Shown one piece after another: positions 2,942 to 14,797 of a stretch of DNA of 33,856 nucleotides. The DNA lies in IMG/VR virus record IMGVR_UViG_3300010430_000286, positions 1-33,856 of that record. One strand, 5' to 3'. The DNA comes from a virus. The notes below the pieces were generated by a model that worked only from the letters and a program-made list of their open reading frames with translations, had not been told where the DNA came from and did no database searches. Made by a program: the position numbers and the translations under genes. Each line of letters starts with the position of its first letter. Within the stretch, counting starts at the first letter, position 1.

Positions 2942-3283
2942 TCAGCCTGCCTTTATTTTATTTAGCTCGCACGATTCACATTCAATAAAATGCTCGTCGC
3001 ACCCCTCGGGTAGATTGCACCCACAGTTATAGCAATGAATCGTTCGAGTTAATTTATTTTTGATAGTCAAGTAAACCGACCGACCGTTAAACAGCCGTCT
3101 AATACCATACGATCGCACAAAACTCACCAGGGTAAAGAAAACGGTCGTTATAACATTCTCAAAGAAGGTAAAATCTTTCCCAATAATAGGGAACCAGATC
3201 AATTGTGCCACCAATGCAGCACCCGCCCCGATAAAGATATTTGTTAGGGCTTCTAGAGCGCTATCAATTTTCGACTGCTTCAT
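2942..3283 (-). CDS. DUF7220-like membrane protein with C-terminal zinc ribbon
   Basis: A 113-residue protein. Residues 8-60 carry two hydrophobic segments with the pattern ALTNIFIGAGAALVAQLIWF..., then FTLVSFVRSYGIRRLF, which I recognise as the phage-associated DUF7220 type of inner-membrane protein (function unknown). It then has a CYNC ... CESC ribbon near the C-terminus. ATG 3283 is preferred over ATG 3289, because GAGGT sits eight bases before the former and only two before the latter. It overlaps the end of the small gene 3416-3264. Confidence 0.75.
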   Translation of the reverse strand: MKQSKIDSALEALTNIFIGAGAALVAQLIWFPIIGKDFTFFENVITTVFFTLVSFVRSYGIRRLFNGRSVYLTIKNKLTRTIHCYNCGCNLPEGCDEHFIECESCELNKIKAG

Positions 3284-3416: not shown

Positions 3417-3676
3417 TGCATAGCCACCTGATCAAAGGCTTGGACTGCTAATTCCCAACCCTTTGGAGGATCGTACTCACTGACAAGCCGCGACTCTTTT
3501 AAATCACCGGCCCGCTTGTGAGCGGGGAACCCGTATTGATAGCGAAGGATCTGTGATAGTGTCGTGCGCGGCATTGATAAGCGATCGGCTATCGATTGAA
3601 TGCTTTCGGTTTTTAACCAGACTTTGATCGCCTCGAGATTCTTAGCAACTTTCTTTCTTGCCTGCGCTTTCGACAC
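3413..3676 (-). CDS. Small helix-turn-helix protein
   Basis: An 87-residue protein with a GTG start (3676) behind AAGGAG. Residues 17-45 (VWLKTESIQSIADRLSMPRTT) form a clear helix-turn-helix, so a DNA-binding role is likely, perhaps regulation or excision control in the leftward operon. The tail is without known motifs. It is coupled by ATGA to the next gene downstream. I do not recognise a named family. Confidence 0.75.
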   Translation of the reverse strand: MSKAQARKKVAKNLEAIKVWLKTESIQSIADRLSMPRTTLSQILRYQYGFPAHKRAGDLKESRLVSEYDPPKGWELAVQAFDQVAMQ

Positions 3677-3678
3677 TT

Positions 3679-3780
3679 TTATTCTCCTTGCGGTAAAAAC
3701 ATATAAGGAATTTCGATAACTTCTGCGATTTCCTCAATGGTTAAGCCTTCGGCCAACAATTCAGCAATTAATTCACCCAT
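3679..3780 (-). CDS. 33-residue helix-turn-helix-like micro-protein
   Basis: MGELIAELLAEGLTIEEIAE then VIEIPYMFLPQGE. The GLTIEEIAEVIEIP stretch looks like the core two helices of a helix-turn-helix. Its ATG follows the SSB stop codon with no gap (TAA then ATG), so translation probably depends on SSB termination, and its stop lies three bases before the next gene's GTG. It could be a trimmed DNA-binding domain or a partner of the 87-residue protein downstream. Confidence 0.55.
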   Translation of the reverse strand: MGELIAELLAEGLTIEEIAEVIEIPYMFLPQGE

Positions 3781-4212
3781 TTAAAAAGGTATATCGTCGT
3801 CAAAGTTGTCATCCATTCCTGCCGGAGTGGCTGACTGAGCTTGTGCCTGGGGCTGCTCGGTCTTTTTGCCGCCTAGCCATTGGACCGTGTGACCAAAGTC
3901 TCGGACACGAATGTCAACGCCGTATTGTTTAACGCCAGCCTTTTCCCAAGAGTGGTAATTAAGCGAACCTTTCACGTAAACCCTGGAACCTTTGCAAAGA
4001 TACTTGGCGATAGATTCTGCCAGCTTGCCAAAAACCGAAACCCGGTGCCATTCGGTTTTTTCCTGCTTTTGACCGGTGTTTTTATCTAACCAACTCTCAC
4101 TAGTTGCAACACTCAAAGTCGTAATTGTGTCACCGTTAGGTGTATAACGAACCTCGGGATCACTCCCCATATCGCCAACAATCACTACGTCATTTATTCC
4201 GCGTTTTGCCAT
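3781..4212 (-). CDS. ssb: Single-stranded DNA-binding protein
   Basis: A 143-residue OB-fold SSB: GINDVVIVGDMGSDPEVRYT, the EWHRVSVFGKLAE strand and GSRVYVKGSL are the standard landmarks, followed by a Gln/Ala-rich linker and the acidic tip DDDIPF that recruits host replication proteins. The start at ATG 4212 is chosen because AAGGTGA lies eight to nine bases upstream; the frame is open to 4278 but that extension has no ribosome-binding site. It protects single-stranded DNA during replication and recombination. It is second in the leftward early operon. Confidence 0.95.
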   Translation of the reverse strand: MAKRGINDVVIVGDMGSDPEVRYTPNGDTITTLSVATSESWLDKNTGQKQEKTEWHRVSVFGKLAESIAKYLCKGSRVYVKGSLNYHSWEKAGVKQYGVDIRVRDFGHTVQWLGGKKTEQPQAQAQSATPAGMDDNFDDDIPF

Positions 4213-4297
4213 TTTATTTTTCACCTTTTTAAAAAAAATGCCGCCCAATACAACAATGGAGGATAAGAGGGCAGCCAATGCCTAGGGAGAACAAACC

Positions 4298-4540
4298 TTA
4301 AATATACTTACTACCGCACTTTGGCCAGGCGTCGACAATGCCTAAAGCTTTTTTTCGGCGATGTTGTGCTTGTGCCGTCTGAATGCCGGCCATGGTGGCG
4401 GATTTAACCGTTTCTCGCTTCAAAACCTGTTCGGCTACAGCGAACCCAATTTCAATAGAATGCTCATCAATACCTTTATTTTTGCATTCTTCGGCGATAA
4501 TTCTTTCAATTCGCTTTAATCTAATATCCTTTAGATGCAT
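4298..4540 (-). CDS. Hypothetical 80-residue basic helical protein
   Basis: Starts at ATG 4540 behind GGAGG; an upstream in-frame ATG (4582) lacks a site. Highly charged and mostly helical (KDIRLKRIERIIAEECKNKG), with a basic patch HRRKK and a late Cys. It is the first gene after the leftward promoter and its two operators, so it would be among the first made on induction. Genes here in lambda-like phages include N-type antiterminators and recombination accessories, but there is no sequence evidence for either. Confidence 0.7.
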   Translation of the reverse strand: MHLKDIRLKRIERIIAEECKNKGIDEHSIEIGFAVAEQVLKRETVKSATMAGIQTAQAQHRRKKALGIVDAWPKCGSKYI

Positions 4541-4629
4541 AATTTCCTCCGCTTTTCCCTTGTTTGAGGCGCTTTTTAACAAAAGTCCATCACTTTATTG
4601 AGATTTGCTCTTGCTCTTGATTGAATTAA

Positions 4630-4659
4630 AAAATACCATAAAGGTATTGTTAGAGTCAA
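4630..4659 (-). promoter_or_regulatory. PL: Leftward early promoter PL
   Basis: On the minus strand, -35 TTGACT (4659-4654) and -10 TATTTT (4635-4630) are separated by 18 bp. One operator (4632-4648) covers the spacer and -10, and the other (4658-4674) touches the -35, so repressor binding would block it. It drives the int-xis-ssb operon. Confidence 0.7.
4632..4648. promoter_or_regulatory. Repressor operator OL1
   Basis: AATACCATAAAGGTATT is a perfect inverted repeat (AATACC, 5 bp, GGTATT). It is the most symmetric of four related sites in the genome and overlaps the PL -10. Confidence 0.75.
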
Positions 4660-4674
4660 CACCCTAATGGTATT
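4658..4674. promoter_or_regulatory. Repressor operator OL2
   Basis: AACACCCTAATGGTATT has the same RRYACC-N5-GGTRYY layout. Its centre is 26 bp from OL1 and it touches the PL -35. Confidence 0.7.
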
Positions 4675-4698
4675 TTATGAAGCCTTTCGTATTTCCCG

Positions 4699-4727
4699 TT
4701 GTTGTATTAGCAATAAGCGGGTACAAT
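4699..4727 (+). promoter_or_regulatory. Operator-free rightward promoter
   Basis: TTGTTG (4699-4704), exactly 17 bp, then TACAAT (4722-4727), 35 bases before the start codon at 4763. No copy of the repressor operator overlaps it, so it could fire in a lysogen. Confidence 0.65.
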
Positions 4728-4762
4728 TTAAAGTGCTTTAAATTAGAATAAAGGAGCTAAAT

Positions 4763-4873
4763 ATGAAGTATTCATTTGTGTACATGTGTCCACCCGACCA
4801 GCAAGACCCACCGGATCCGAACAAGCAACCGAAGAAGAAAGACGGCGACAGCGACTCTCTAGACAAGTCGTAG
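4763..4873 (+). CDS. 36-residue Pro/Lys/Asp-rich peptide
   Basis: ATG 4763 sits behind AAAGGAGCTAAAT, the best ribosome-binding site of the cassette. The peptide is hydrophilic (PPDQQDPPDPNKQPKKKDGD) after a short hydrophobic start, with no known family. It ends five bases before the membrane-protein ATG at 4879, so it may be a leader that couples translation or a functional partner. An overlapping longer frame (GTG 4786) lacks a ribosome-binding site. Confidence 0.6.
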   Translation: MKYSFVYMCPPDQQDPPDPNKQPKKKDGDSDSLDKS

Positions 4874-4878
4874 CCGTT

Positions 4879-5412
4879 ATGTGGAGCGTTTTCGTCGAGG
4901 TTGAAGAGAATATACTTTTGGTATTGTTATTTGTATCTTTTCTGGTAGCCACAAAAACCAAACGGGGCGTGGTTGTTTCTGCCTCATTGTATTGTTTGTT
5001 TTTGATCAGCAATCTGACCCAAGAGCTTAGATACACTTCAGAACTCGCTCCACTAATCTATTTGCCATTTACCGTTTTTATGGCCAGCATCACTTGTTTT
5101 TTGATTTTGCAGTATTCAGAAAAAATACGTTTATTTGAAATATCGGTATTGATAACACTGCTCGGAGTGATGGCTCTGGCATTGGCGCGATATATCGACG
5201 CATGGTATTTACCAAATTTCAAAATGGGGTCGACCTATACAGCTATCATGATGCTGTTGGACACAATATTAGTTGGTCTCTCTTTCTATCCCAACACAAG
5301 GAAGCTATTAAACAAACTTTCAGACAGGTTAAAGAATGCAGCATTTCGTTTTGTTTTCGCTCTTCGCGGTTTTTTTGGTGACGGTTTACGGGGTTATAAG
5401 GGCAATAAGTAA
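4879..5412 (+). CDS. Multi-pass membrane protein, lysogeny cassette
   Basis: A 177-residue protein with about five hydrophobic segments (from ENILLVLLFVSFLVA, SLYCLFLIS, LIYLPFTVFMASITCFLIL, VLITLLGVMALALA and TAIMMLLDTILVGLSF) and a basic C-terminal tail. It is thus an inner-membrane protein of unknown family. ATG 4879 is taken as the start because it follows the stop of the 36-residue peptide; a start at 4786 would add a charged 31-residue N-terminus. With an operator-free promoter and a position between the control regions, superinfection exclusion or host defence is a plausible guess, not shown by sequence. Confidence 0.7.
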   Translation: MWSVFVEVEENILLVLLFVSFLVATKTKRGVVVSASLYCLFLISNLTQELRYTSELAPLIYLPFTVFMASITCFLILQYSEKIRLFEISVLITLLGVMALALARYIDAWYLPNFKMGSTYTAIMMLLDTILVGLSFYPNTRKLLNKLSDRLKNAAFRFVFALRGFFGDGLRGYKGNK

Positions 5413-5647
5413 CGCCCAAAAACGCAGTCAACTCCCGACCACCCCTCAACCCGCCACTATTCCCCCCGACCTAAAGTTGGTGGATATATCCGCCTATGCG
5501 CAAAAGAAGGAATTAGAAGATAAAAATAGAATACTTCAGATGATTGTCGATATTGATGCGTCGCGTGATTCTGACGAGGTGGCACTTGAAACCATCCGCT
5601 GCCAAATGGAGGCCGAATATATCCTAACTAAGTATTCAGAGAAATAA
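5336..5647 (+). CDS. Single-pass membrane protein, partner in the cassette
   Basis: A 103-residue protein with an N-terminal membrane helix (FVLFSLFAVFLVTVYGVIRA), a Pro-rich linker and a charged helical tail (YAQKKELEDKNRILQMIVDI). It overlaps the end of the upstream membrane gene by 77 bases in another frame, with AGG-type spacing before ATG 5336, so the two are co-translated and probably work together at the membrane. No family recognised. It converges with the minus-strand gene at 5628, overlapping by 20 bases. Confidence 0.65.
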   Translation: MQHFVLFSLFAVFLVTVYGVIRAISNAQKRSQLPTTPQPATIPPDLKLVDISAYAQKKELEDKNRILQMIVDIDASRDSDEVALETIRCQMEAEYILTKYSEK

Positions 5648-5954
5648 CATTTTTTCTAGAGTCTTTTTCGCCGGTCTTTCTGAATGGAGAATCAACCGAA
5701 AACAATTCTTCGTTCGACTCAACCAACTTATTAAACCTTCGCCACCAAACAATTAAAGATAATCTGCGCATATCGTCTGACATCGCTTCTATTGCCTGGC
5801 GCTCTATTAGCAAATCTAACGCCTGTGCCGAAACTTTCCTATAAAACCGCAGCTTTTCTAAATCTGCCGGCATTTCGGTAATTTGGTAGTTTAAATCCAA
5901 TGAATCAATAGTTGATGAGTTTCGGCGGTATAGCCGAGCAAGTAAGTTGCTCAT
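5628..5954 (-). CDS. Hypothetical helical protein near the repressor
   Basis: A 108-residue charged, helical protein (ADLEKLRFYRKVSAQALDLL; LSLIVWWRRFNKLVE), probably soluble. ATG 5954 follows AAGGAT. It has a candidate promoter of its own at 5992-6020 and lies downstream of the repressor on the same strand, so it may be expressed in the lysogen. I do not recognise it; regulator, exclusion or accessory roles are all possible. Confidence 0.65.
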   Translation of the reverse strand: MSNLLARLYRRNSSTIDSLDLNYQITEMPADLEKLRFYRKVSAQALDLLIERQAIEAMSDDMRRLSLIVWWRRFNKLVESNEELFSVDSPFRKTGEKDSRKNVISLNT

Positions 5955-5991
5955 AAAGTAATCCTTTTTAAATCAAATCCTAAACACTCTT

Positions 5992-6020
5992 AAATTATCA
6001 CTGCGGGAGATATGAATCAA
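5992..6020 (-). promoter_or_regulatory. Candidate promoter for the 5954-5628 gene
   Basis: Minus-strand TTGATT (6020-6015), 17 bp, TAATTT (5997-5992), about 38 bases before the start codon. A very AT-rich tract (6032-6060) lies just upstream and could act as an UP element. The match is moderate. Confidence 0.4.
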
Positions 6021-6084
6021 TAACATAAAAGCGATATTTATATATATTTATATATAATAAAACGCTCAGGCTGTAGAGGAGGGG

Positions 6085-6678
6085 TTATTTGTGTTTGCTT
6101 TGAAAATTTGAGTTGTTAGTTTTGCCGTTCAGATCGGTAAAAATATCATTTAGGAGTTCGGCGTAGGTTTCGCGCTCTTCTTCATCCGTCATTTTAACGC
6201 CCGGCTCATTCTTGACTTTCTGGATAAGTTCGTGAGCTAAAACCCCCGCACTTATCATGGCCTGTTTTTCAGGCGTTTCGGCCGTTGTGGGCGCAGTTGT
6301 TATCGCGCTACCCTCATAAAGATCGGCTATTATTCTCGCTAATTGCTCGCTGGAAAAATCGCCATCAATAAACCCTACAGCCCGCTGCGCATACTTCACC
6401 GCTAAAGTCATGCGTTGAATATCGATAGAACTTGTTGTCGCCTGTTTTACTCCCTGGTTGTCCAGTGAAAATTTCGGCAATTTATATGCCGCCTCGATTT
6501 TGCGCGCCATATCATCACTGATAGGGCGGCTCGGCCTTTTGGTAGCAAATTGGTTGGTGTAGGTAGAGTCTTGCCCCAATAAAACAGAGAGTTGCTTCTG
6601 AGCCCCACGTCCCTTGCTTTCAATTATAGCCCTTAAGTTCTTGTGCCTAAGTAGCTGTAACTCACTGAATTTTCTCAT
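6085..6678 (-). CDS. CI-like repressor lacking a cleavage domain
   Basis: A 197-residue protein. The N-terminal half resembles phage repressor DNA-binding domains (LRAIIESKGRGAQKQLSVLL, ISDDMARKIEAAYKLP), with a turn at GQDSTYTNQFATKRPSRP. The C-terminal half is helical and acidic and has no visible Ser-Lys S24/LexA peptidase motif. Divergent from the Cro-like gene across two operators, it is the expected lysogeny repressor. ATG 6678 is chosen since the -10 TATAAT ends seven bases upstream, predicting a leaderless mRNA; upstream ATGs overlap the promoter. It probably binds RRYACC-N5-GGTRYY. Confidence 0.85.
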   Translation of the reverse strand: MRKFSELQLLRHKNLRAIIESKGRGAQKQLSVLLGQDSTYTNQFATKRPSRPISDDMARKIEAAYKLPKFSLDNQGVKQATTSSIDIQRMTLAVKYAQRAVGFIDGDFSSEQLARIIADLYEGSAITTAPTTAETPEKQAMISAGVLAHELIQKVKNEPGVKMTDEEERETYAELLNDIFTDLNGKTNNSNFQSKHK

Positions 6679-6685
6679 AGGTTTC

Positions 6686-6715
6686 ATTATAGACAACCCT
6701 GTCAATTTTCGTTAA
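6686..6715 (-). promoter_or_regulatory. PRM: Repressor maintenance promoter (PRM-like)
   Basis: Perfect -10 TATAAT (6691-6686); -35 TTAACG (6715-6710) at 18 bp. A TTGACA at 6705-6700 is only 8 bp from the -10 and cannot pair with it. The -35 touches operator OR3-like site 6714-6730, so repressor could activate or limit its own gene. Confidence 0.6.
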
Positions 6716-6730
6716 TACCTAAAAGGTGCT
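6714..6730. promoter_or_regulatory. Repressor operator (repressor-proximal OR site)
   Basis: AATACCTAAAAGGTGCT, same layout as the OL sites (RRYACC-N5-GGTRYY). It lies at the PRM -35 and upstream of the PR -35. Confidence 0.7.
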
Positions 6731-6737
6731 GTTTTGC

Positions 6738-6766
6738 TTGCTAAAATAGCACCATAATGGTATTGT
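6738..6766 (+). promoter_or_regulatory. PR: Rightward early promoter PR
   Basis: TTGCTA (6738-6743), 17 bp, TATTGT (6761-6766). The operator at 6748-6764 fills the spacer and enters the -10, the same geometry as OL1 at PL, where the operator's final TATT also forms the -10. Confidence 0.6.
6748..6764. promoter_or_regulatory. Repressor operator (cro-proximal OR site)
   Basis: AGCACCATAATGGTATT, centred 34 bp from the other OR site and inside the PR spacer and -10. Confidence 0.7.
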
Positions 6767-6787
6767 TTTGGTTGTTCAGGAGGCGTG

Positions 6788-7015
6788 ATGAGTAGATTTC
6801 GACAGTTTGTACGAAAACTAAGGCGAGAAAATCGTCTTAAAGAGTTCGCCGAGAAGGCAAACACAACAGAAGGGTATGTGGTCTCGCATTTGTTTACACC
6901 TAACAAAGTGCCACGCCGCAAACTCTGGCGAGATCTTGTTAATGCTTCTAATGGAGAGTTAGATGATAGCTCTATGATTGAACACTTTATCAATCGTGAA
7001 AAGGAGAGTGCGTAG
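6788..7015 (+). CDS. cro: Cro-like helix-turn-helix protein
   Basis: A 75-residue basic protein with a helix-turn-helix around residues 18-40 (LKEFAEKANTTEGYVVSHLF) followed by PRRKLWRDLVNASNGELDDS, the pattern of Cro/YdaS-like regulators. First gene rightward of the repressor, behind AGGAGG at 6778-6783; the GTG at 6785 is too close to that site. Expected role: bind the same operators and favour lytic growth. It runs directly into the 102-residue gene downstream. Confidence 0.85.
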   Translation: MSRFRQFVRKLRRENRLKEFAEKANTTEGYVVSHLFTPNKVPRRKLWRDLVNASNGELDDSSMIEHFINREKESA

Positions 7016-7018
7016 ATT

Positions 7019-7327
7019 ATGAGTGGAATCAGAGATCGACTAGGCATGGGAAAGAAGACCGAGCAGCTTAAAACCAAAACCAATGAATTTTGCCACGATA
7101 CCTTCGTGAGGTTTTCTTTTGAGCTTGGCTTAAAGCCTGCAGAAGCTTTGAGAGAGCTCGCAATTATCGCCTGCATTATTTTTAAGCACTCCAGGTACTC
7201 TGAGCTAAGGCGAAAAATCAGCCAATCTAAATTAAACCAACAGGGCGTTGTGGATGAAGCCATTGATCACTATCTGCAAAAAAAGGAATCCAATGTGATC
7301 AGAATAGACCGGAGAGAAGGGGTTTGA
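7019..7327 (+). CDS. Hypothetical early protein downstream of cro
   Basis: A 102-residue charged helical protein (FSFELGLKPAEALRELAIIA; SELRRKISQSKLNQQGVVDE). It sits where lambda has cII, but I see no clear CII-type helix-turn-helix. ATG 7019 follows the cro stop by three bases, with GGAGAG upstream, so the two are co-transcribed from PR. Possible second regulator; function unproven. Confidence 0.7.
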   Translation: MSGIRDRLGMGKKTEQLKTKTNEFCHDTFVRFSFELGLKPAEALRELAIIACIIFKHSRYSELRRKISQSKLNQQGVVDEAIDHYLQKKESNVIRIDRREGV

Positions 7328-7332
7328 CAACA

Positions 7333-7351
7333 GCCATTTATGGCCTTTTTT
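7333..7351 (+). terminator. Weak early terminator (tR1-like)
   Basis: A short stem GCCA-TTTA-TGGC followed by CTTTTTT, just after the 102-residue gene. A larger inverted repeat (7347-7395, TTTTGGGCCCC and GGGGCCCCAAAA) overlaps it. It could attenuate PR transcripts. Confidence 0.4.
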
Positions 7352-7412
7352 GGGCCCCTTTTTTTGTATTCTCAAGGCCCTAATGGGGCCCCAAAAGAGA
7401 TGATTATTAACT

Positions 7413-7604
7413 TTAAGAAACGATAAAAAATTCCGGCCAAATTCCACCACCCCCTTTGGGGCGAGCATTAAGGTGGTGATGAAGGATTGTTGATTGGTTC
7501 AAGGATACTTTAAGGATTGGTGGCTCATTGCCTCCACCATTTCCACCTGGGGTCGTGACATTTACCGCAAACGAGGCAAGAAACACGATTAACATAGATT
7601 TCAT
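7413..7604 (-). CDS. Small secreted glycine-rich protein, opposite strand
   Basis: A 63-residue frame with a signal-peptide-like start (MKSMLIVFLASFAVNV), then TPGGNGGGNEPP and a Gly-rich tail. ATG 7604 has AAAAGGA seven bases upstream and a good promoter behind it (7638-7665). It lies alone against the direction of the early operon, as accessory 'moron' genes do. Family not recognised; an envelope or secreted peptide made in the lysogen is the inference. The rest of 7328-7687 holds only the inverted repeats noted above. Confidence 0.5.
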   Translation of the reverse strand: MKSMLIVFLASFAVNVTTPGGNGGGNEPPILKVSLNQSTILHHHLNARPKGGGGIWPEFFIVS

Positions 7605-7637
7605 AACTAAGTCCTTTTGTTGATCGAGAATTCAAAG

Positions 7638-7665
7638 AGTATAGCGAATTGAAACAGAAATTCAA
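7638..7665 (-). promoter_or_regulatory. Promoter of the small secreted-protein gene
   Basis: Minus-strand TTGAAT (7665-7660), 16 bp, TATACT (7643-7638), 33 bases before the ATG at 7604. No repressor operator overlaps it. Confidence 0.55.
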
Positions 7666-7687
7666 ATTTCGACAGGAGCTAAACGGA

Positions 7688-8014
7688 ATGGGTGAATTAA
7701 CAACTGCAGACATACTTAGAGCTATTGCAGACAATATGGATGCAAAAGAGACCACCGATGATAAGGCCGCCGGCCCGCCGTATCTCTTTGGTTACTTGCC
7801 AGACAACTTGCCAGATCCTAAACCAACGATTGTCTGGATGATGGAATTCGACGGCGACCAGGTTGTATTTAGGCGGTATCAAAAAGGTTTTGAAATACCC
7901 GATGAAATACATCGCCCCGCCAGCTTAAGAGAGGCGGTGGTATGGGCTGCCGCGATTATTCAGGGTTTTCAACCACCACATTCCCTTCGCGAGTGCGATA
8001 TACGTGGGGCGTAA
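7688..8014 (+). CDS. Hypothetical early protein
   Basis: A 108-residue soluble protein starting at ATG 7688 with AGGAG nine to ten bases upstream; the frame extends back to a TTG (7649) lacking a site. It begins with a helical LTTADILRAIADNMDA segment, has a Pro-rich middle (YLFGYLPDNLPDPKPT) and a helical end. No family recognised. It converges with the minus-strand gene 8174-7956 and the two share 59 bases at their 3' ends. Confidence 0.6.
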   Translation: MGELTTADILRAIADNMDAKETTDDKAAGPPYLFGYLPDNLPDPKPTIVWMMEFDGDQVVFRRYQKGFEIPDEIHRPASLREAVVWAAAIIQGFQPPHSLRECDIRGA

Positions 8015-8174
8015 ATTGAAGCTGAACAACTGTGTTTCCCCGGGATTTTAAACCATTGTATTCAAGGCCAGAAAAAGAAATTTCCCAATCATCCGGAAAC
8101 ACTTCTAGCTCCTTTTTGAGCTGACCGACGGGAATTGTGGGGATGAAAAGATCCTTTGCATTTGATTCAGACAT
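7956..8174 (-). CDS. Small conserved-looking phage protein, opposite strand
   Basis: A 72-residue protein starting at ATG 8174 behind AAAAGGA. The sequence IPVGQLKKELEVFPDDWEIS then FSGLEYNGLKSRG...VVQLQF resembles small phage proteins with a 'LKKEL..FPDD..I.F.GL.....K.RG' pattern that I recall from other early regions; function unknown. It overlaps the preceding plus-strand gene tail-to-tail by 59 bases, so transcription of one strand would give antisense RNA to the other. Confidence 0.65.
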   Translation of the reverse strand: MSESNAKDLFIPTIPVGQLKKELEVFPDDWEISFSGLEYNGLKSRGNTVVQLQFTPHVYRTREGNVVVENPE

Positions 8175-8219
8175 TATGTTTTTCCTTTTGATGTTTGTGG
8201 TGAACGCCAAAAGGATACC

Positions 8220-8239
8220 AGCGCCCCGAGAGGGGCGCT
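8220..8239. terminator. Strong hairpin in the divergent gap
   Basis: A perfect 8-bp stem AGCGCCCC / GGGGCGCT with a GAGA (GNRA) loop. The plus strand continues ACTTTCAATTT, a weak T-tract. It lies between a minus gene (8174) and a plus gene (8271) and may be a leaky terminator or an RNA processing signal. Confidence 0.5.
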
Positions 8240-8270
8240 ACTTTCAATTTGAGATAGCGAGGGAGTGAAC

Positions 8271-8618
8271 ATGCACTATACAGACGTTAGACAAACCTCT
8301 AAGGACGCTTACGCCCATATCAGAAAAGAGAAGGGCATCACGCAAGCAGACACCGTTTTACTTTGCCTGGCTGATCATGTTGGCGGGTTGGTTCGGCGAG
8401 AGGTGGCGGGGATTTTAGGCTGGTTTCCTTCTGATGTTTCGAGAAGCGTTAACGGCCTGATTGGTCAAGGCTTAGTAAAAGAAAACGGAACCCGCCGCAA
8501 ACCTTCCAAAATGTATGTGCCTGATAACGACGTTAATGAAGGTTATGAGGTGGTGGTTACTGGAAAGGGTCGCGCAAAGGTTCGAAAGCTTGCTAAAAAG
8601 GTGACGGTGGCAGGATGA
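8271..8618 (+). CDS. Winged helix-turn-helix protein upstream of the initiator
   Basis: A 115-residue protein with a MarR-like winged-helix pattern: DTVLLCLADHVGGLVRREVA, then GWFPSDVSRSVNGLIGQGLV and a basic wing ENGTRRKPSK. ATG 8271 follows GAGGGAG; a GTG at 8265 is too close. Its stop overlaps the initiator start by four bases (ATGA), so the two are coupled and it probably assists or regulates replication. Confidence 0.75.
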   Translation: MHYTDVRQTSKDAYAHIRKEKGITQADTVLLCLADHVGGLVRREVAGILGWFPSDVSRSVNGLIGQGLVKENGTRRKPSKMYVPDNDVNEGYEVVVTGKGRAKVRKLAKKVTVAG

Positions 8619-9406
8619 GCAGATCGGCAACCGATTGGGCTTGGAAGCAACCCTTAAAACCAAGCCTAAAACTTGTTTTGCTCTCGATGTCAGATCGGGC
8701 CAATGAGTTCCATGAGTGCTTTCCGTCTTATGCTCGCCTCGAAAAAGATACCGGACTCAACCGAAAAACCATTAGCGCCGCCTTAAAAAAACTGGCCGAG
8801 TTAAATATTATTCGAGACACAAAAAAACGCGTTGGCCGAACTGGGCAGGTTGTTGTTTATGAATTGATTGGTCTAAAGAGTACCGAAAACGGGACCGTTA
8901 AAGAATCCCACTTCTGGAACCCTTTAGAATCAAAGCGTCCCAAAAACGGTACGGGTAACAGTACCAAAAACGGTACGATTAAACAGTCCCAAAAACGGTA
9001 CTCAGAACCACCCAATAGGAACCACCCAATAGAACCAGAGAGAGGGACGCGCACCCCCGGTCCAATTCCAGAAGATTTCACACCCTCGGAGGTCGCGCTC
9101 TTCAATCTCGAAAAAAACAAACTCGAACCACTGAACGACTCTGAGCTGTTCGCGTTCATTTCTCACTATCAGGGGACGGGTGAAGTTAGACCAAACTGGG
9201 ACGCCGTTTACCAAAAATGGGTAGTTAACCAGCGCCGCAATTTCAAAAAGCCAACGAGGACGGCGCCACCCGCCGCAACGCCACCACCGAAAATTACCAA
9301 TTTCGAACACCTCACCCGCGAAACGACGGAAGAAGAGCGAAAGCAAAACGCTGAGCGGCTCAAAGCGTTCCAGGAAGCCGCCGAAAAAAACGGGGTGAAA
9401 AAATGA
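8615..9406 (+). CDS. Replication initiator (lambda O-like)
   Basis: A 263-residue protein. Residues 15-90 form a winged helix-turn-helix (YARLEKDTGLNRKTISAALK KLAELNIIRD) like phage O and RepA-type initiators. The middle is a flexible Asn/Thr/Lys-rich linker encoded by the iterons (8880-9001), and the C-terminal part holds PEDFTPSEVALFNLEKNKLE and a charged helical end that may contact a helicase or loader. No phage helicase gene was found nearby, so a host helicase is probably recruited. Iterons inside the gene are the arrangement known for lambda ori. Confidence 0.85.
   Translation: MSRSATDWAWKQPLKPSLKLVLLSMSDRANEFHECFPSYARLEKDTGLNRKTISAALKKLAELNIIRDTKKRVGRTGQVVVYELIGLKSTENGTVKESHFWNPLESKRPKNGTGNSTKNGTIKQSQKRYSEPPNRNHPIEPERGTRTPGPIPEDFTPSEVALFNLEKNKLEPLNDSELFAFISHYQGTGEVRPNWDAVYQKWVVNQRRNFKKPTRTAPPAATPPPKITNFEHLTRETTEEERKQNAERLKAFQEAAEKNGVKK
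8880..9001 (+). repeat. ori: Iterons: probable replication origin inside the initiator gene
   Basis: Four 16-bp repeats GTMCCRAAAACGGKAC at 8880-8895, 8937-8952, 8961-8976 and 8986-9001. The last three are spaced 24-25 bp, slightly over two helical turns; the first is 57 bp away. Each has partly symmetric ends (GTACC/GGTAC) and three are followed by an NNTTAA/GTAA-like word. Expected to bind the initiator. Confidence 0.75.
9005..9032 (+). repeat. Perfect 14-bp tandem duplication next to the iterons
   Basis: GAACCACCCAATAG occurs twice without a gap, four bases after the last iteron. As 14 is not a multiple of three, the copies are read in different frames (EPPNR and NHPIE). Confidence 0.8.
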
Positions 9407-9630
9407 TCAATTGGCGAGTGATGGATAAGTGGCACATGCGAAGTGTAACCGAGAGAGGCAAACCGGGTTTGTACACGATCATGTGGACTGGGCATACCCC
9501 TCCAAAATATCGATCAAGCCACAACAAAATTTTCATTGGCAAACCGGTTTCAAGTTTGCAGTCGGCAAAAAGACAATGCGAGAAACATTATGAGCGAATT
9601 CAAAAACGATCAGCCATTCAAGCTGCTTAA
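9403..9630 (+). CDS. Hypothetical early protein
   Basis: A 75-residue basic protein coupled to the initiator by an ATGA overlap. The first half (GKPGLYTIMWTGHTPPKYRS) looks like beta structure; the second (SAKRQCEKHYERIQKRS) is a basic helix. No family recognised. It is the first of a run of small ORFs that occupy the place of the lambda nin region. Confidence 0.65.
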   Translation: MINWRVMDKWHMRSVTERGKPGLYTIMWTGHTPPKYRSSHNKIFIGKPVSSLQSAKRQCEKHYERIQKRSAIQAA

Positions 9631-9712
9631 CAGAATCCTGCAGAGTATCGCCGCATTTCTGGTCGCAATGGCCTGCGTGTCAATTTTTCTACTGATGGGG
9701 TTGGTGTGGTGA
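9590..9712 (+). CDS. 40-residue single-pass membrane peptide
   Basis: MSEFKNDQPFKLLNRILQSI then a hydrophobic segment AAFLVAMACVSIFLLMGLVW to the stop. Nested between two genes, overlapping the upstream one by 41 bases and the downstream one by 7. The clear polar-then-membrane pattern argues for a real product; role unknown. Confidence 0.5.
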   Translation: MSEFKNDQPFKLLNRILQSIAAFLVAMACVSIFLLMGLVW

Positions 9713-9924
9713 ATATTAAATACAAGAGAATTGTTAGAGACGCCCAAAACCATTTTGGTCTTTTAGAGGAATGGATGCAGCGAATGATTGAAAAGATCAG
9801 CTATCGTGGATTGGGCATCGATTTAACGCCAGGTGAGATAAACAGCCTTGACAACATTGCTGAACACCTGGCAGTAAAAAAGCCAAAAACAAAGGCAAAA
9901 TTTTGGCCTCTGCAAGCGGACTAA
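9706..9924 (+). CDS. Hypothetical early protein
   Basis: A 72-residue protein with a GTG start (9706, or GTG 9709 one codon later) behind TGGGG. Mainly helical (QNHFGLLEEWMQRMIEKISY; LTPGEINSLDNIAEHLAVKK) with a basic C-terminus. The overlap with the membrane peptide suggests coupled translation. No family recognised. Confidence 0.65.
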   Translation: MVNIKYKRIVRDAQNHFGLLEEWMQRMIEKISYRGLGIDLTPGEINSLDNIAEHLAVKKPKTKAKFWPLQAD

Positions 9925-9926
9925 CG

Positions 9927-10103
9927 ATGCAACCACCGCTGTTCATCGAAGAAGGGGCAAAGTATACGGTTAAGTATCGAGGGCATATTGTTGACGTGTG
10001 GCGAGTTGGCAACCAATGGATGACCGACAGTTATCATGTTTGCGATGAGAGTAAGTTAGAAGTAATGCAAAGGCTAGGCACACCCTCGGAAATTTTCAAT
10101 TAA
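9927..10103 (+). CDS. Hypothetical small beta-rich protein
   Basis: A 58-residue protein from ATG 9927, just after the previous stop; a TTG at 9903 is less likely. AKYTVKYRGHIVDVWRVGNQ suggests a small beta-barrel or SH3-like fold, followed by a helix. No family recognised. It sits in the same early operon. Confidence 0.6.
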   Translation: MQPPLFIEEGAKYTVKYRGHIVDVWRVGNQWMTDSYHVCDESKLEVMQRLGTPSEIFN

Positions 10104-10115
10104 AGGAGAAGACAA

Positions 10116-10310
10116 ATGTCACAACCTAACACTGAAAACCAATGGCACAGCATTAACGCCCGAAACGAGTTAAGCCATATTGATTACAACGCAGTTCAAA
10201 AACTCGGCGCTAATAATCCCGTTTCAAGAAAAATAAAAGAAGCCGCCGCCGAGCTCGATAAGATCGAGACGCTTATAAAATTTCATCAACTCGATTCGGT
10301 GCTGTCGTGA
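10116..10310 (+). CDS. Hypothetical early protein
   Basis: A 64-residue soluble protein with a strong AAAGGAG eight bases before its ATG. Helical, with mixed charge (RKIKEAAAELDKIETLIKFH). Its TGA overlaps the GTG of the next gene. Unknown function. Confidence 0.65.
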   Translation: MSQPNTENQWHSINARNELSHIDYNAVQKLGANNPVSRKIKEAAAELDKIETLIKFHQLDSVLS

Positions 10311-10528
10311 ATAACCCGATTAACCAAATGCTTGATAGTTGGGATGCCCGCGCTGGTGGCGGTGTAAAGTACCATCAAAGCAAGCTAACTGATTTTTGCA
10401 TGAACTGCCGCCAACCTAAAAGGCCCGATCAGATGTACAAGGTGAAAGGCAAAAGACACAAGGTTTGTGACACCTGCAAGGGTCACTTACACGATTTTAA
10501 AGCAAGGCAGAAAAAACGGGGTAACTAA
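10307..10528 (+). CDS. Small zinc-ribbon protein upstream of NinG
   Basis: A 73-residue basic protein with a GTG start overlapping the previous stop (GTGA). Two Cys pairs, CMNC and CDTC, about 20 residues apart form a zinc ribbon, and the tail is Lys/Arg rich, so nucleic-acid binding is likely. Its TAA shares a base with the next gene's apparent ATA start (TAATA). Confidence 0.75.
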   Translation: MNNPINQMLDSWDARAGGGVKYHQSKLTDFCMNCRQPKRPDQMYKVKGKRHKVCDTCKGHLHDFKARQKKRGN

Positions 10529-11073
10529 TACCGAAAAAGCCAACCAAACTCAAACCGTGCGCAGTGTGCACTAATGAGTTTAAGCCGTTCAGGACGACAG
10601 ACCGTGTTTGCGAAAGCTACATTTGCCGCAGTACCTGGTCACAGCAAAAAAGGGAACAGGCCGAAGAGAGAAAAGCCAAAAATAAGGCGGCGAGCAAAGC
10701 AGAACAAGGCCGCTCAACTCGAGAGGCAAGCGCCCAAATTTGGTTTAACAGGTACATTCGGGTAATTAGGGATAAGGGCAAACCGTGCATCAGTTGCGGA
10801 ACGTTTGACGGACCGTTTCATTGCGGCCATTACCGAAGCGTTGGAAGCGCACCAGAATTAAGATTTTGCGAAGATAACGCGCACAGGCAATGTAAAGAAT
10901 GCAACATCGACAAAAGTGGCAATCACCTGGCATACAGAGAGGCCCTTAAAAAGAGAATAGGCTTAAAGCGATTTGAAGTGGTTGAAAGTTACCACCCCCA
11001 GAATCATTACACGATTCAAGAATTAATCGATATTGAAAATTATTACAAACAATTGTGCAAGGAGTTGGAATGA
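10528..11073 (+). CDS. ninG: NinG family recombination protein, apparent ATA start
   Basis: A 181-residue NinG (Rap)-type protein, which in lambda helps process branched recombination intermediates. Landmarks are the N-terminal CAVC...C...C zinc knuckle, a long charged helix (KKREQAEERKAKNKAASKAE), then CISCG, FHCGHYRSVG and CKECNIDKSGN. A GTG at 10564 would delete the first Cys of the knuckle. Upstream in the same frame the only plausible initiator is ATA 10528, in TAATA where coupled genes usually have TAATG, with CGGGGT upstream. Confidence 0.85.
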   Translation: MPKKPTKLKPCAVCTNEFKPFRTTDRVCESYICRSTWSQQKREQAEERKAKNKAASKAEQGRSTREASAQIWFNRYIRVIRDKGKPCISCGTFDGPFHCGHYRSVGSAPELRFCEDNAHRQCKECNIDKSGNHLAYREALKKRIGLKRFEVVESYHPQNHYTIQELIDIENYYKQLCKELE

Positions 11074-11417
11074 CTGAAAAAACCCCAAATTACAAAGCAG
11101 ACCAAGCAATTGAACGTCTTGAAGAAAGTAAAGGCTATGAGCCGCTTGGCGCATGCAAGTCGCAGTTTGAAATTTTCCTGGAAGAAGAGTTAAACCTGGT
11201 CAAAAAAGTGCTCGTTGAGAAAAATCGCAAATATGGTAATTCAGCCCTGGAACCTCAGCGCGTTTTTTCCAAAGCCAGCCCCTTAGAGCAGATAAACGTC
11301 AGAATAGACGACAAACTATCACGCATTGCAAACCAACAAAAGGATGAAGACGAAGATGCAGAATTCGACTTACTCGGCTACCTGTTACTCAAAATGGTCG
11401 CCAAACGATATGTCTAG
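11070..11417 (+). CDS. DUF1599-like (nucleotide-modification-associated) protein
   Basis: A 115-residue protein from ATG 11070 behind AAGGAG. The core KNRKYGNSALEPQRVFSKAS, then IRVRIDDKLSRI-like (INVRIDDKLSRIANQQ), an acidic DEDEDAEFD and LLGYLLLKMVAKRY closely follows the DUF1599 pattern that I recall as 'nucleotide modification associated domain 1'. Family members occur in phages and are linked by context to nucleotide metabolism; the reaction is not established. It overlaps NinG and the Q-like gene at its ends. Confidence 0.7.
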   Translation: MTEKTPNYKADQAIERLEESKGYEPLGACKSQFEIFLEEELNLVKKVLVEKNRKYGNSALEPQRVFSKASPLEQINVRIDDKLSRIANQQKDEDEDAEFDLLGYLLLKMVAKRYV

Positions 11418-11772
11418 TAGAAGGATTGATATTGATCATGATCTCATTCAATGGGCATTGTGGAGTAAGCGAGGCAGTGATCCGGGTATTGGTTATCCAC
11501 CTATGACACCAACCCGCAGAATCAGCGGGGCGCCACTCGAGTGGGAATATGATATTAATCACGTACCAATCGCGATCACTATATCAGACGACCGCGCGAT
11601 AAGAATCGATAAGGCCATCGCGTCACTAGAACTAGACTTAAGGACGACGATTTATCTCAAGTACCAGCGAGAGTTTCAAATTATTAAAATCGCCAAAGCA
11701 ATGCGACTTAGCAGAGATAAGGTTTCACAGAACATTCAAACGGCCAAAAGGGTTCTCCAGCACATCCTATAA
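11410..11772 (+). CDS. Q-like antiterminator
   Basis: A 120-residue protein from ATG 11410 (overlapping the previous stop). N-terminal IDHDLIQWALWSKRG with a GIGYPP patch, and a C-terminal ID.AI..L....R..IYLKYQ...IIKIAKAMRLSRDKVSQN helix-turn-helix, match the small antitermination-Q family. Its position right before a promoter followed by two terminators supports that role: it would load on polymerase at the late promoter and allow read-through into the lysis and structural genes. Confidence 0.8.
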   Translation: MSSRRIDIDHDLIQWALWSKRGSDPGIGYPPMTPTRRISGAPLEWEYDINHVPIAITISDDRAIRIDKAIASLELDLRTTIYLKYQREFQIIKIAKAMRLSRDKVSQNIQTAKRVLQHIL

Positions 11773-11775
11773 AAC

Positions 11776-11784
11776 TTATCCACA
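11776..11784 (+). promoter_or_regulatory. Consensus DnaA-box sequence
   Basis: TTATCCACA, an exact match to the strong bacterial DnaA box, 20 bases upstream of the late promoter -35. A single site could occur by chance. Confidence 0.35.
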
Positions 11785-11802
11785 GGCGCCGAAAAAAAAT
11801 AT

Positions 11803-11830
11803 TTGCATCGTGCGCGCATGGTGTTAAAAT
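11803..11830 (+). promoter_or_regulatory. Late promoter PR'
   Basis: TTGCAT (11803-11808), 16 bp, TAAAAT (11825-11830) with an extended -10 TGT directly upstream. The position between Q and the lysis genes, plus the terminators that follow, identify it as the late promoter. Confidence 0.75.
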
Positions 11831-11854
11831 AACAAGCCTAAAAACATTATTTTG

Positions 11855-11887
11855 AAAGCTGCACCCTAACGGAATGCGGCTTTTTTT
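11855..11887 (+). terminator. Late leader terminator 1
   Basis: Stem AAAGCTGCA / TGCGGCTTT (one G-U pair), then TTTTTTT. It starts about 20 bases after the predicted transcription start, as with lambda tR'. Confidence 0.8.
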
Positions 11888-11946
11888 GTGCCTGAAATTT
11901 GATGCTGCTCCTTCACCTATAACAATAAGATCTCCCTAAACTTAAA

Positions 11947-11994
11947 GCGCCTACAGGGTCTCTCCACCCTTGGCTATAGGCGCGTCTTTTTTTT
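11947..11994 (+). terminator. Late leader terminator 2
   Basis: Stem GCGCCTA / TAGGCGC, with an inner CAGGG / CCCTTG stem, followed by TTTTTTTT. It stands just before the ribosome-binding site of the first late gene. Confidence 0.75.
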
Positions 11995-12005
11995 AAAGGA
12001 TAACT

Positions 12006-13228: not shown

Positions 13229-14797
13229 TTGCCACTATCAAGAGTAAGGGCAGCAGTAAGGGCCGTTCTAGTTTCTGCGGCTGTTTTTCCATTGGCGGCT
13301 AGTGAGTTTGTACCTGCCAAAATGCCAATGGAGGTTACGTTTCCCCGCCCCGATCTGGAAACACAGGCCCACGCCAGACATCGAGTGCTATCCAACGAGA
13401 TAGATAACGAATTGCCTATCGGTATTCGTGGCGGTGCCTGGCCATTTAAATATGAATTAATACAGGCTCCAGCCGGGACAACTCTTGGCGAACTTCCGAC
13501 CGATCCAGATTACGGGTTTTTAAATATTCCCAAGGAGTCTGTACCGGCAAGCGGAACGGTCACAATAACTATCCATGTGCATGACTGCGAAAATGTTTCG
13601 CCAACGGTCATCACCTGGGACCCTGTTGCTGATAACAGCGCATTTGTTTATACAGATAATAGCGTCCCCGTTTCTGGAACCGGCACACACGACAGTCCGT
13701 TAAAGGATTTTCAAGACTGGTTTTTAGACGACGAAAACGATACGACTTTCGCGAACAAGGTCGCGGTCTGGAAAACGGGAAGCGGGGCATATGTACCGCG
13801 CAGCGATGCGGGCTTTTCGAGTAACGTAAGATTTAACCAGGGATCTAAAACGCCCTCTTTTATCGCTTATCCAGGCCATTCACCTGTTTGGGATTGTACC
13901 AACGCAAAATTATTAACCGATACGCCTGGTGGGCTAGATGATCTTTTCGTTTATGGGATCACTTTTCAAAATGCCCGCCAAGATGTTTCTAACGCTCATT
14001 TTTGGTGGGTAAGGGGTGGTATACAAAGGATCACCTTTGCGAGATGCACCCTTAAAGATTTTGGTGGCGGCGGAACTGTTGGCAATGACAATACCTGTCC
14101 GATTTTTATCTCAAACGACGACACGCAAAAATATCACGTAACGATTAAAGAGAATACCTGGGATAACATATCAACGCGCATTGGCGGCGTTCAAGTATCA
14201 AATGGCTCGCTCCTTGATATGTATTACACCTTCAATATTTGTTTTGAAGGTAATATCGCGAAAAATTGCGATACCACTTATGGGTGGTGGTTTAAGGGCT
14301 CTACTGCCTTCGCTAGCTTCCGCCGAAATTATGCGGTTGAAAACATGCAAGGCCGAATTTTAACCATTGGCTATGGCGCAGAAGCGCAAGAAATACCCCA
14401 TGACCATGAAGTTTGTTGGAATACGCTAATCGGCGAGAGTGACACCGGACAAGATGTTGTTCTGTGGGCTATGTCGCCCGTTAACGCCAATTTATCCTAT
14501 AACTCATTTGAGTATCGCAATTCGATAAGCGGCCGCGTTCGTTACCAATTCTTTACGGTAACCGCAAACGATCCTCAGGAAGATTCCGAACTACTCGAGA
14601 CTCAAGACAGCATTTACATTAGCGACAACAATCCAAATCAGAATAACCATTTAACGGCCTCAGTCATCAACGAAGTAGGCCCAAGGCTAACCGATACACT
14701 CACAGGTAATTCGACAACAGACGCCACCGGGAAATTGGTCGGGCTCGCTAGAGATAACAACCTTTATTCAATAGGTCCAGAAACTCGCTATGGCTAA
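13229..14797 (+). CDS. Right-handed beta-helix appendage protein
   Basis: A 522-residue protein starting at TTG 13229 with CAGGA about eight bases upstream. The first ~23 residues look like a Sec signal or a hydrophobic anchor. The middle (about 150-430) has the short repeated strands and NN/GG turns of a parallel beta-helix (VYGITFQNARQDVSN; ARCTLKDFGGGG; FEGNIAKNCDTTYG; RRNYAVENMQGRI), as in tail spikes and polysaccharide lyases. It may bind or cut a surface glycan. An export signal on a phage structural protein would be unusual; a later start (MPMEV, residue 32) is possible. Confidence 0.7.
   Translation: MPLSRVRAAVRAVLVSAAVFPLAASEFVPAKMPMEVTFPRPDLETQAHARHRVLSNEIDNELPIGIRGGAWPFKYELIQAPAGTTLGELPTDPDYGFLNIPKESVPASGTVTITIHVHDCENVSPTVITWDPVADNSAFVYTDNSVPVSGTGTHDSPLKDFQDWFLDDENDTTFANKVAVWKTGSGAYVPRSDAGFSSNVRFNQGSKTPSFIAYPGHSPVWDCTNAKLLTDTPGGLDDLFVYGITFQNARQDVSNAHFWWVRGGIQRITFARCTLKDFGGGGTVGNDNTCPIFISNDDTQKYHVTIKENTWDNISTRIGGVQVSNGSLLDMYYTFNICFEGNIAKNCDTTYGWWFKGSTAFASFRRNYAVENMQGRILTIGYGAEAQEIPHDHEVCWNTLIGESDTGQDVVLWAMSPVNANLSYNSFEYRNSISGRVRYQFFTVTANDPQEDSELLETQDSIYISDNNPNQNNHLTASVINEVGPRLTDTLTGNSTTDATGKLVGLARDNNLYSIGPETRYG

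Follow-up and report, generated by a model that had tools for sequence, protein, structure and literature searches.

In phage lambda the operators are 17-bp gapped palindromes; the outer operator lies in the core of the early promoter PL or PR, a second operator cluster is present at PL, and repressor bound at OR2, near -42, activates the repressor promoter PRM. Lambda has three OR sites and PY54 a single easily recognised operator, and leaderless cI mRNAs have been reported for both phages (PMC4488713). The distance between OL and OR in lambda is roughly 2.3 kb (PMC5880393). The Rep protein of the Salmonella phage SPC32H has a C-terminal domain that serves for tetramerisation and also binds an antirepressor (PMC9986798), and the non-proteolytic repressors of other phages depend on antirepressors or other proteases (PMC10432266).

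The window analysed here is the entire virus record IMGVR_UViG_3300010430_000286 (33,856 bases). We propose that it contains the region governing immunity in a lambda-like temperate phage, with shut-off of PL and PR, repressor self-activation and a Cro protein tipping the switch to lysis, a reading that we hold with high confidence from the sequence comparisons described below. Its core is a set of four 17-bp sites, to which the on/off regulators encoded by the phage itself very probably bind. The original prediction located four sites of the form RRYACC-N5-GGTRYY at 4632, 4658, 6714 and 6748, and exact matches are found at each position, namely OL1 (AATACCATAAAGGTATT, 4632..4648), OL2 (AACACCCTAATGGTATT, 4658..4674), the OR2-like inner OR operator (AATACCTAAAAGGTGCT, 6714..6730) and OR1 (AGCACCATAATGGTATT, 6748..6764). 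It also anticipated that a genome-wide scan would yield only these four strong sites, and this is what the scan of the whole record returned: four zero-mismatch matches, all within two intergenic control regions, and no match with one mismatch. Sites with two mismatches are at chance level (20 total matches versus 22 expected in the record), and a backwards control pattern gave 0 matches in the same 33,856 bases. A weight matrix built from the four sites scores them at 19.4-23.8 bits, the next position in the record reaching 15.1, which leaves two strong sites per cluster in the window. With each site left out in turn and the arms used alone, every site ranks second or third among all window positions.

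The consensus had been fitted post hoc in the original prediction, so independent tests were applied. Fitting after the sites had been seen, together with the abundance of AT-rich palindromes in shuffled sequences, is what could favour chance palindromes in AT-rich intergenic DNA as the explanation. When palindromes of the window were clustered de novo, the operators did not stand apart from such chance palindromes, so that the operator claim is carried by the motif scan and by cross-phage tests. For the latter we used an Aliikangiella coralliicola prophage (L005), whose repressor is 52% identical and which was the single relative from one genome search, and IMGVR_UViG_3300032255_000017 (L012, here the IMG/VR relative), which was found through its Cro (37%) and has a repressor 45% identical to that of the window. 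Further searches of viral contigs and whole genomes with Cro and the post-cro protein returned the same three phages and no others. When an arm matrix derived from the window only was applied to the Aliikangiella prophage, positions 9973, 7887, 9997 and 7950, which are its OL and OR sites, ranked 1-4 of 16,558; the naive chance of all four falling in the two control intergenic regions of that prophage is about 3e-7. These out-of-sample ranks, and the score gap to the next sites, in effect refute the chance explanation, whose probability we regard as practically nil.

The gene order of the Aliikangiella prophage is the same as that of the window: a leftward operon, OL, a gene for a short Pro/Asp-rich peptide, a membrane-like gene, a gene of 103-121 aa, an opposing gene of ~107 aa, the repressor gene, OR, cro and a gene of ~100 aa. 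In the window and both relatives, repressor and cro-like genes diverge from an intergenic region that carries repeated operators, and a further cluster of these operators is found at the early promoter that points leftward. The spacing between the centres of OL1 and OL2 is 26 bp in the window, 24 bp in the Aliikangiella prophage and 25 bp in the IMG/VR relative. The assignment of the sites as a repressor and Cro operator set, also made in the original prediction, is thus strongly supported by phylogenetic footprinting with two distant relatives of the same gene order. At the level of sequence, the comparison establishes four predicted operators that share one specificity, with one pair at PL and the other between repressor and cro, and with positions that are kept in the relatives.

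The two early promoters share the near-identical geometry that had been claimed for them. PL, on the minus strand, is TTGACT-18-TATTTT (-35 at 4654..4659, -10 at 4630..4635), and PR, on the plus strand, is TTGCTA-17-TATTGT (-35 at 6738..6743, -10 at 6761..6766); in both, the last TATT of the operator forms the first four bases of the -10. OL1 lies within the spacer and -10 of PL and OR1 within the spacer and -10 of PR, OL1 having counterparts and OR1 the same geometry in both relatives, and OL2 overlaps the PL -35 at its upstream end. Each of the six early promoters of the three phages has a -10 that begins with operator bases 14-17; their -35 elements are TTGACT, TTGCTA, TTGACA, TTGATC, TTGACC and TTGAAA. 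Averaged over these six promoters, a -10 start at operator position 14 gives a mean promoter score of 8.83 of 12, the best over 90 offsets (background mean 4.61, sd 0.86; next-best offset 6.17). By this geometry alone, operators overlap PL and PR in such a way that binding would occlude the polymerase. The same fixed offset bears on the reading of the repeats as transcription terminators or RNA hairpins, for which a terminator-like match spanning 4641-4665 could be cited. Two adjacent operators in inverted arrangement account for that match, and it was rejected as a terminator; each site is itself a gapped palindrome at a promoter with the same -10 offset in three phages, and we consider the terminator or hairpin reading extremely unlikely.

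The inner OR operator appears to have a role of its own, which was overlooked in the original prediction. The predicted repressor promoter PRM (TTAACG-18-TATAAT, 6686..6715, minus strand) has a TATAAT whose first base keeps a distance of exactly 40 bp to the inner OR site in each of the three phages, so placing the operator centre at -43 from the predicted PRM start. The inner site of the IMG/VR relative scores poorly, at 6.8 bits, and ranks 19th in its locus and second in the intergenic region, and the third instance of -43 is therefore not independent proof. The centre spacing between OR1 and the inner site varies, being 34 bp in the window and the IMG/VR relative and 63 bp in the Aliikangiella prophage. 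We infer from its likeness to lambda OR2 that the inner site would serve repressor self-activation. In the window 7 nt separate the end of the PRM -10 from the repressor ATG, and across the three phages the interval is 6-7 nt. A ribosome-binding site would not fit there, and the repressor mRNA is therefore predicted to be leaderless, apparently in all three. No OR3-like site over PRM is present among the top-scoring matches listed for the window and the IMG/VR relative. The Aliikangiella prophage has a fifth, weaker site at 7976-7992 (TTTAGCTAAAAGGTATA, 13.3 bits) over the PRM -10, which is placed on PRM as OR1 is on PR and resembles OR3.

The IMG/VR relative keeps the 6-N5-6 frame with its half-site shifted to TTTAGC. 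Its sites are OL1 at 3199 (TTTAGC-AAAAC-GCTAAA, a perfect palindrome), OL2 at 3224 (AATATC-AAAAC-GCTAAA) and OR1 at 7055 (TATAGC-ATTTT-GCTAAG, palindromic at 10/12). The half-site thus reads AATACC, TATACC and TTTAGC across the three phages at an unchanged position, and the segment of the repressor aligned with the expected recognition helix reads STYTNQF in the window, PTYTGQF in the Aliikangiella prophage and STQTSQF in the IMG/VR relative; the recognition region of Cro also differs among the phages. Co-variation of the operator half-site with the recognition helices of repressor and Cro is suggested by these sequences, which come from three phages. Such a change of half-site at a fixed position fits a co-varying, phage-encoded regulator and speaks against a host regulator that would hold the phage under host control. 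Host-regulated prophage promoters do exist in general, but the relaxed pattern occurs 38 times in the Aliikangiella genome against 33 for the reversed control, with no regulon evident, and binding by a host protein seems very unlikely to us. A stronger competitor is that the sites serve one regulator alone, Cro or the repressor, and that the other uses other sites. PY54 provides a precedent, in which Cro binds a single 16-bp site, OR3, and the CI sites are of marginal similarity (PMC4488713). On the other side, no second palindrome common to the two control regions of the window was seen, and the recognition regions of both proteins differ together with the operator in the IMG/VR relative; we judge a one-regulator arrangement rather unlikely and favour operators shared by repressor and Cro.

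Both regulator genes of the original prediction are present, the 197-residue repressor at 6678..6085 on the minus strand and the 75-residue Cro analogue at 6788..7015 on the plus strand, the latter with a predicted helix-turn-helix (HTH) fold and a confident model (pLDDT 89). Directly after cro, a conserved 102-aa protein (7019..7327, plus strand) is encoded in all three phages with 43% identity. It has no clear family match and stands about where lambda carries cII; it could be a third regulator. The PL operon starts with a gene at 4298..4540 followed by an SSB gene at 3781..4278 (Pfam SSB, E 3e-31), both on the minus strand, and the integrase gene lies farther left. Between OL and OR, three plus-strand genes (4763..5647) are transcribed toward OR and encode a 36-aa peptide (4763-4873), a membrane-like protein (4879-5412) and a 103-aa protein (5336-5647), each with a similar gene in the same order in the relatives, as judged by eye. 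A 108-aa gene (5628..5954, minus strand) follows the repressor gene in the same orientation, and both relatives have a similarly placed gene. Rightward of cro there are genes for an O-like replication protein, NinG and a Q-like antiterminator, then terminase, portal and tape measure genes. The Q-like protein (11326-11772; a weak match at E 6e-4, below the Pfam cutoff) is likely the late-gene regulator. The gene order is lambda-like.

The membrane-like protein, whose family is unassigned, is also encoded in the Aliikangiella prophage (9256-9792, minus strand) and the IMG/VR relative (3417-3956, plus strand), and the proteins of the window and the IMG/VR relative have the motif ARYIDAWY in common. 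In all three phages its gene stands after that of a 36-38-aa Pro/Asp-rich peptide, between OL and the repressor gene, and the two are candidates for a superinfection-exclusion or lysogenic-conversion cassette. At 6461-6877 the Aliikangiella prophage has another gene for a repressor-like HTH protein, which runs against its early right operon.

The repressor (6085..6678, minus strand), a CI analogue, comprises an HTH domain and a C-terminal half predicted to be all-helical in a low-confidence model (pLDDT 61). No Pfam match was obtained for any of the three repressor orthologues, and hence no S24 peptidase domain was detected. The first ~100 residues match phage transcriptional regulators in PHROGs, and the N-terminus is ~37% identical to cI of SfV, SfIV and cdtI over the HTH. 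Among solved structures, the best match to the N-terminal domain is SPC32H Rep (PDB 5d4z/5d50), a weak one at E 0.06. Structural alignment to 5d50 gives Z 7.3 (rmsd 3.3, 67 aligned, 27% identity), which we call tied with the Z of 6.7 for lambda repressor 1lmb. Foldseek aligned 192 columns to 5d50, but with a TM of about 0.3 and E 0.034, and fold searches with the repressor and Cro models gave no match at E <= 0.001. A search of the phage collection returned no repressor relative, and the DNA of positions 4000-12000 gave no near match. More distant repressor matches mostly cover the HTH region alone; three of them (L055, L037 and L036) were set aside, as the 6-5-6 palindromes near the gene are unlike these operators, and in L036, where the sole reading frame of the three was recovered, the tail is LexA/S24-like by eye. 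In the collections searched, full-length relatives are confined to the three phages. Judged from its sequence, the repressor family is uncharacterised and has no detectable S24 domain; the protein is probably unable to cut itself, and induction would then probably proceed via another protein and not by RecA-stimulated self-cleavage. A perfect CTGT-N8-ACAG, resembling a LexA box, was noted at 13623-13638, inside a 522-aa open frame (13229-14797). As an SOS handle it was discarded: it is a single match within a large open frame and probably due to chance.

In the mechanism that we propose, dimers of the 197-aa repressor would occupy OL1 and OR1, covering the spacer and the first four bases of the -10, and would silence the two early operons. 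Once bound to the inner OR operator, at -43 of PRM, the repressor would touch RNA polymerase and activate its own apparently leaderless transcript, and the 75-aa Cro would bind the same sites with a different preference, tipping the switch to lysis. Induction would probably be via another protein, as in SPC32H, 186 or N15. OL and OR may also be brought together by looping. The outer sites are separated by 2116 bp from centre to centre, in agreement with the 2.1 kb first given, and OL1 and OR1 lie 2110 bp apart in the Aliikangiella prophage; both values are near the roughly 2.3 kb of lambda. In the IMG/VR relative the distance is 3856 bp, lengthened by a toxin-antitoxin-like pair, one member of which resembles a CopG antitoxin, and by a gene of ~229 aa (4548-6079), all located between the genes on the OL side and the repressor gene, so the 2.1-kb spacing is not fixed and the exact distance not essential. 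In a bolder version, repressors of a small non-peptidase family would operate a minimal lambda-type switch of 2+2 sites; their helical C-terminal domain would form tetramers and link OL to OR over a distance of two or nearly four kb, and induction would be antirepressor-driven and not RecA-driven. Taken as a whole, we find this version doubtful. SPC32H Rep and other non-proteolytic repressors are here a lead for induction and looping, not a demonstration.

We regard the finding as solid but largely textbook, the unusual part being the repressor. Through it, the immunity specificity is fully predicted for a group of phages of which no relative has been described. With half-site and recognition helices shifting while the promoter geometry stays fixed, the three phages offer a natural test of a specificity change in two regulators, and also of a possible requirement of lambda-like looping for three sites or for a CI of the S24 type.

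Compared with described phages, the window resembles lambda in its divergent repressor and cro genes, 17-bp gapped palindromes, an outer operator in the PL and PR promoter core (OL1/OR1), an inner OR site near -42/-43 of PRM, a PL cluster about 2 kb away, a repressor mRNA that is leaderless (predicted here) and Q-, NinG- and O-like genes downstream. It differs from lambda in having two operators per cluster, where lambda has three with OR3 over PRM, in a repressor without an S24 peptidase match, in the other genes between OL and the repressor gene, and in the OR1-OR2 spacing (34 bp, and 63 bp in the Aliikangiella prophage). The cI proteins of the SfV/SfIV/cdtI type, several of which are annotated as UmuD-like, match the window repressor for about 73 residues, after which the match ends. 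SPC32H Rep is close to it in length (199 versus 197 aa) and gives the best, though weak, solved-structure match to its N-terminal domain, but the C-terminal halves show no significant match in sequence, and no antirepressor was recognised here. Among the telomere phages with an immB switch, N15 has a non-proteolytic repressor (PMC10432266), as is probable here, and likewise two OL operators, but it carries three OR sites and an OL that overlaps the repA promoter. PY54 has a leaderless cI mRNA (PMC4488713), as predicted here, and, with its one recognised operator, indicates that two-site clusters rule out a copy of lambda and not the wider lambdoid kind, of whose known switch the present system is a new, somewhat reduced member.
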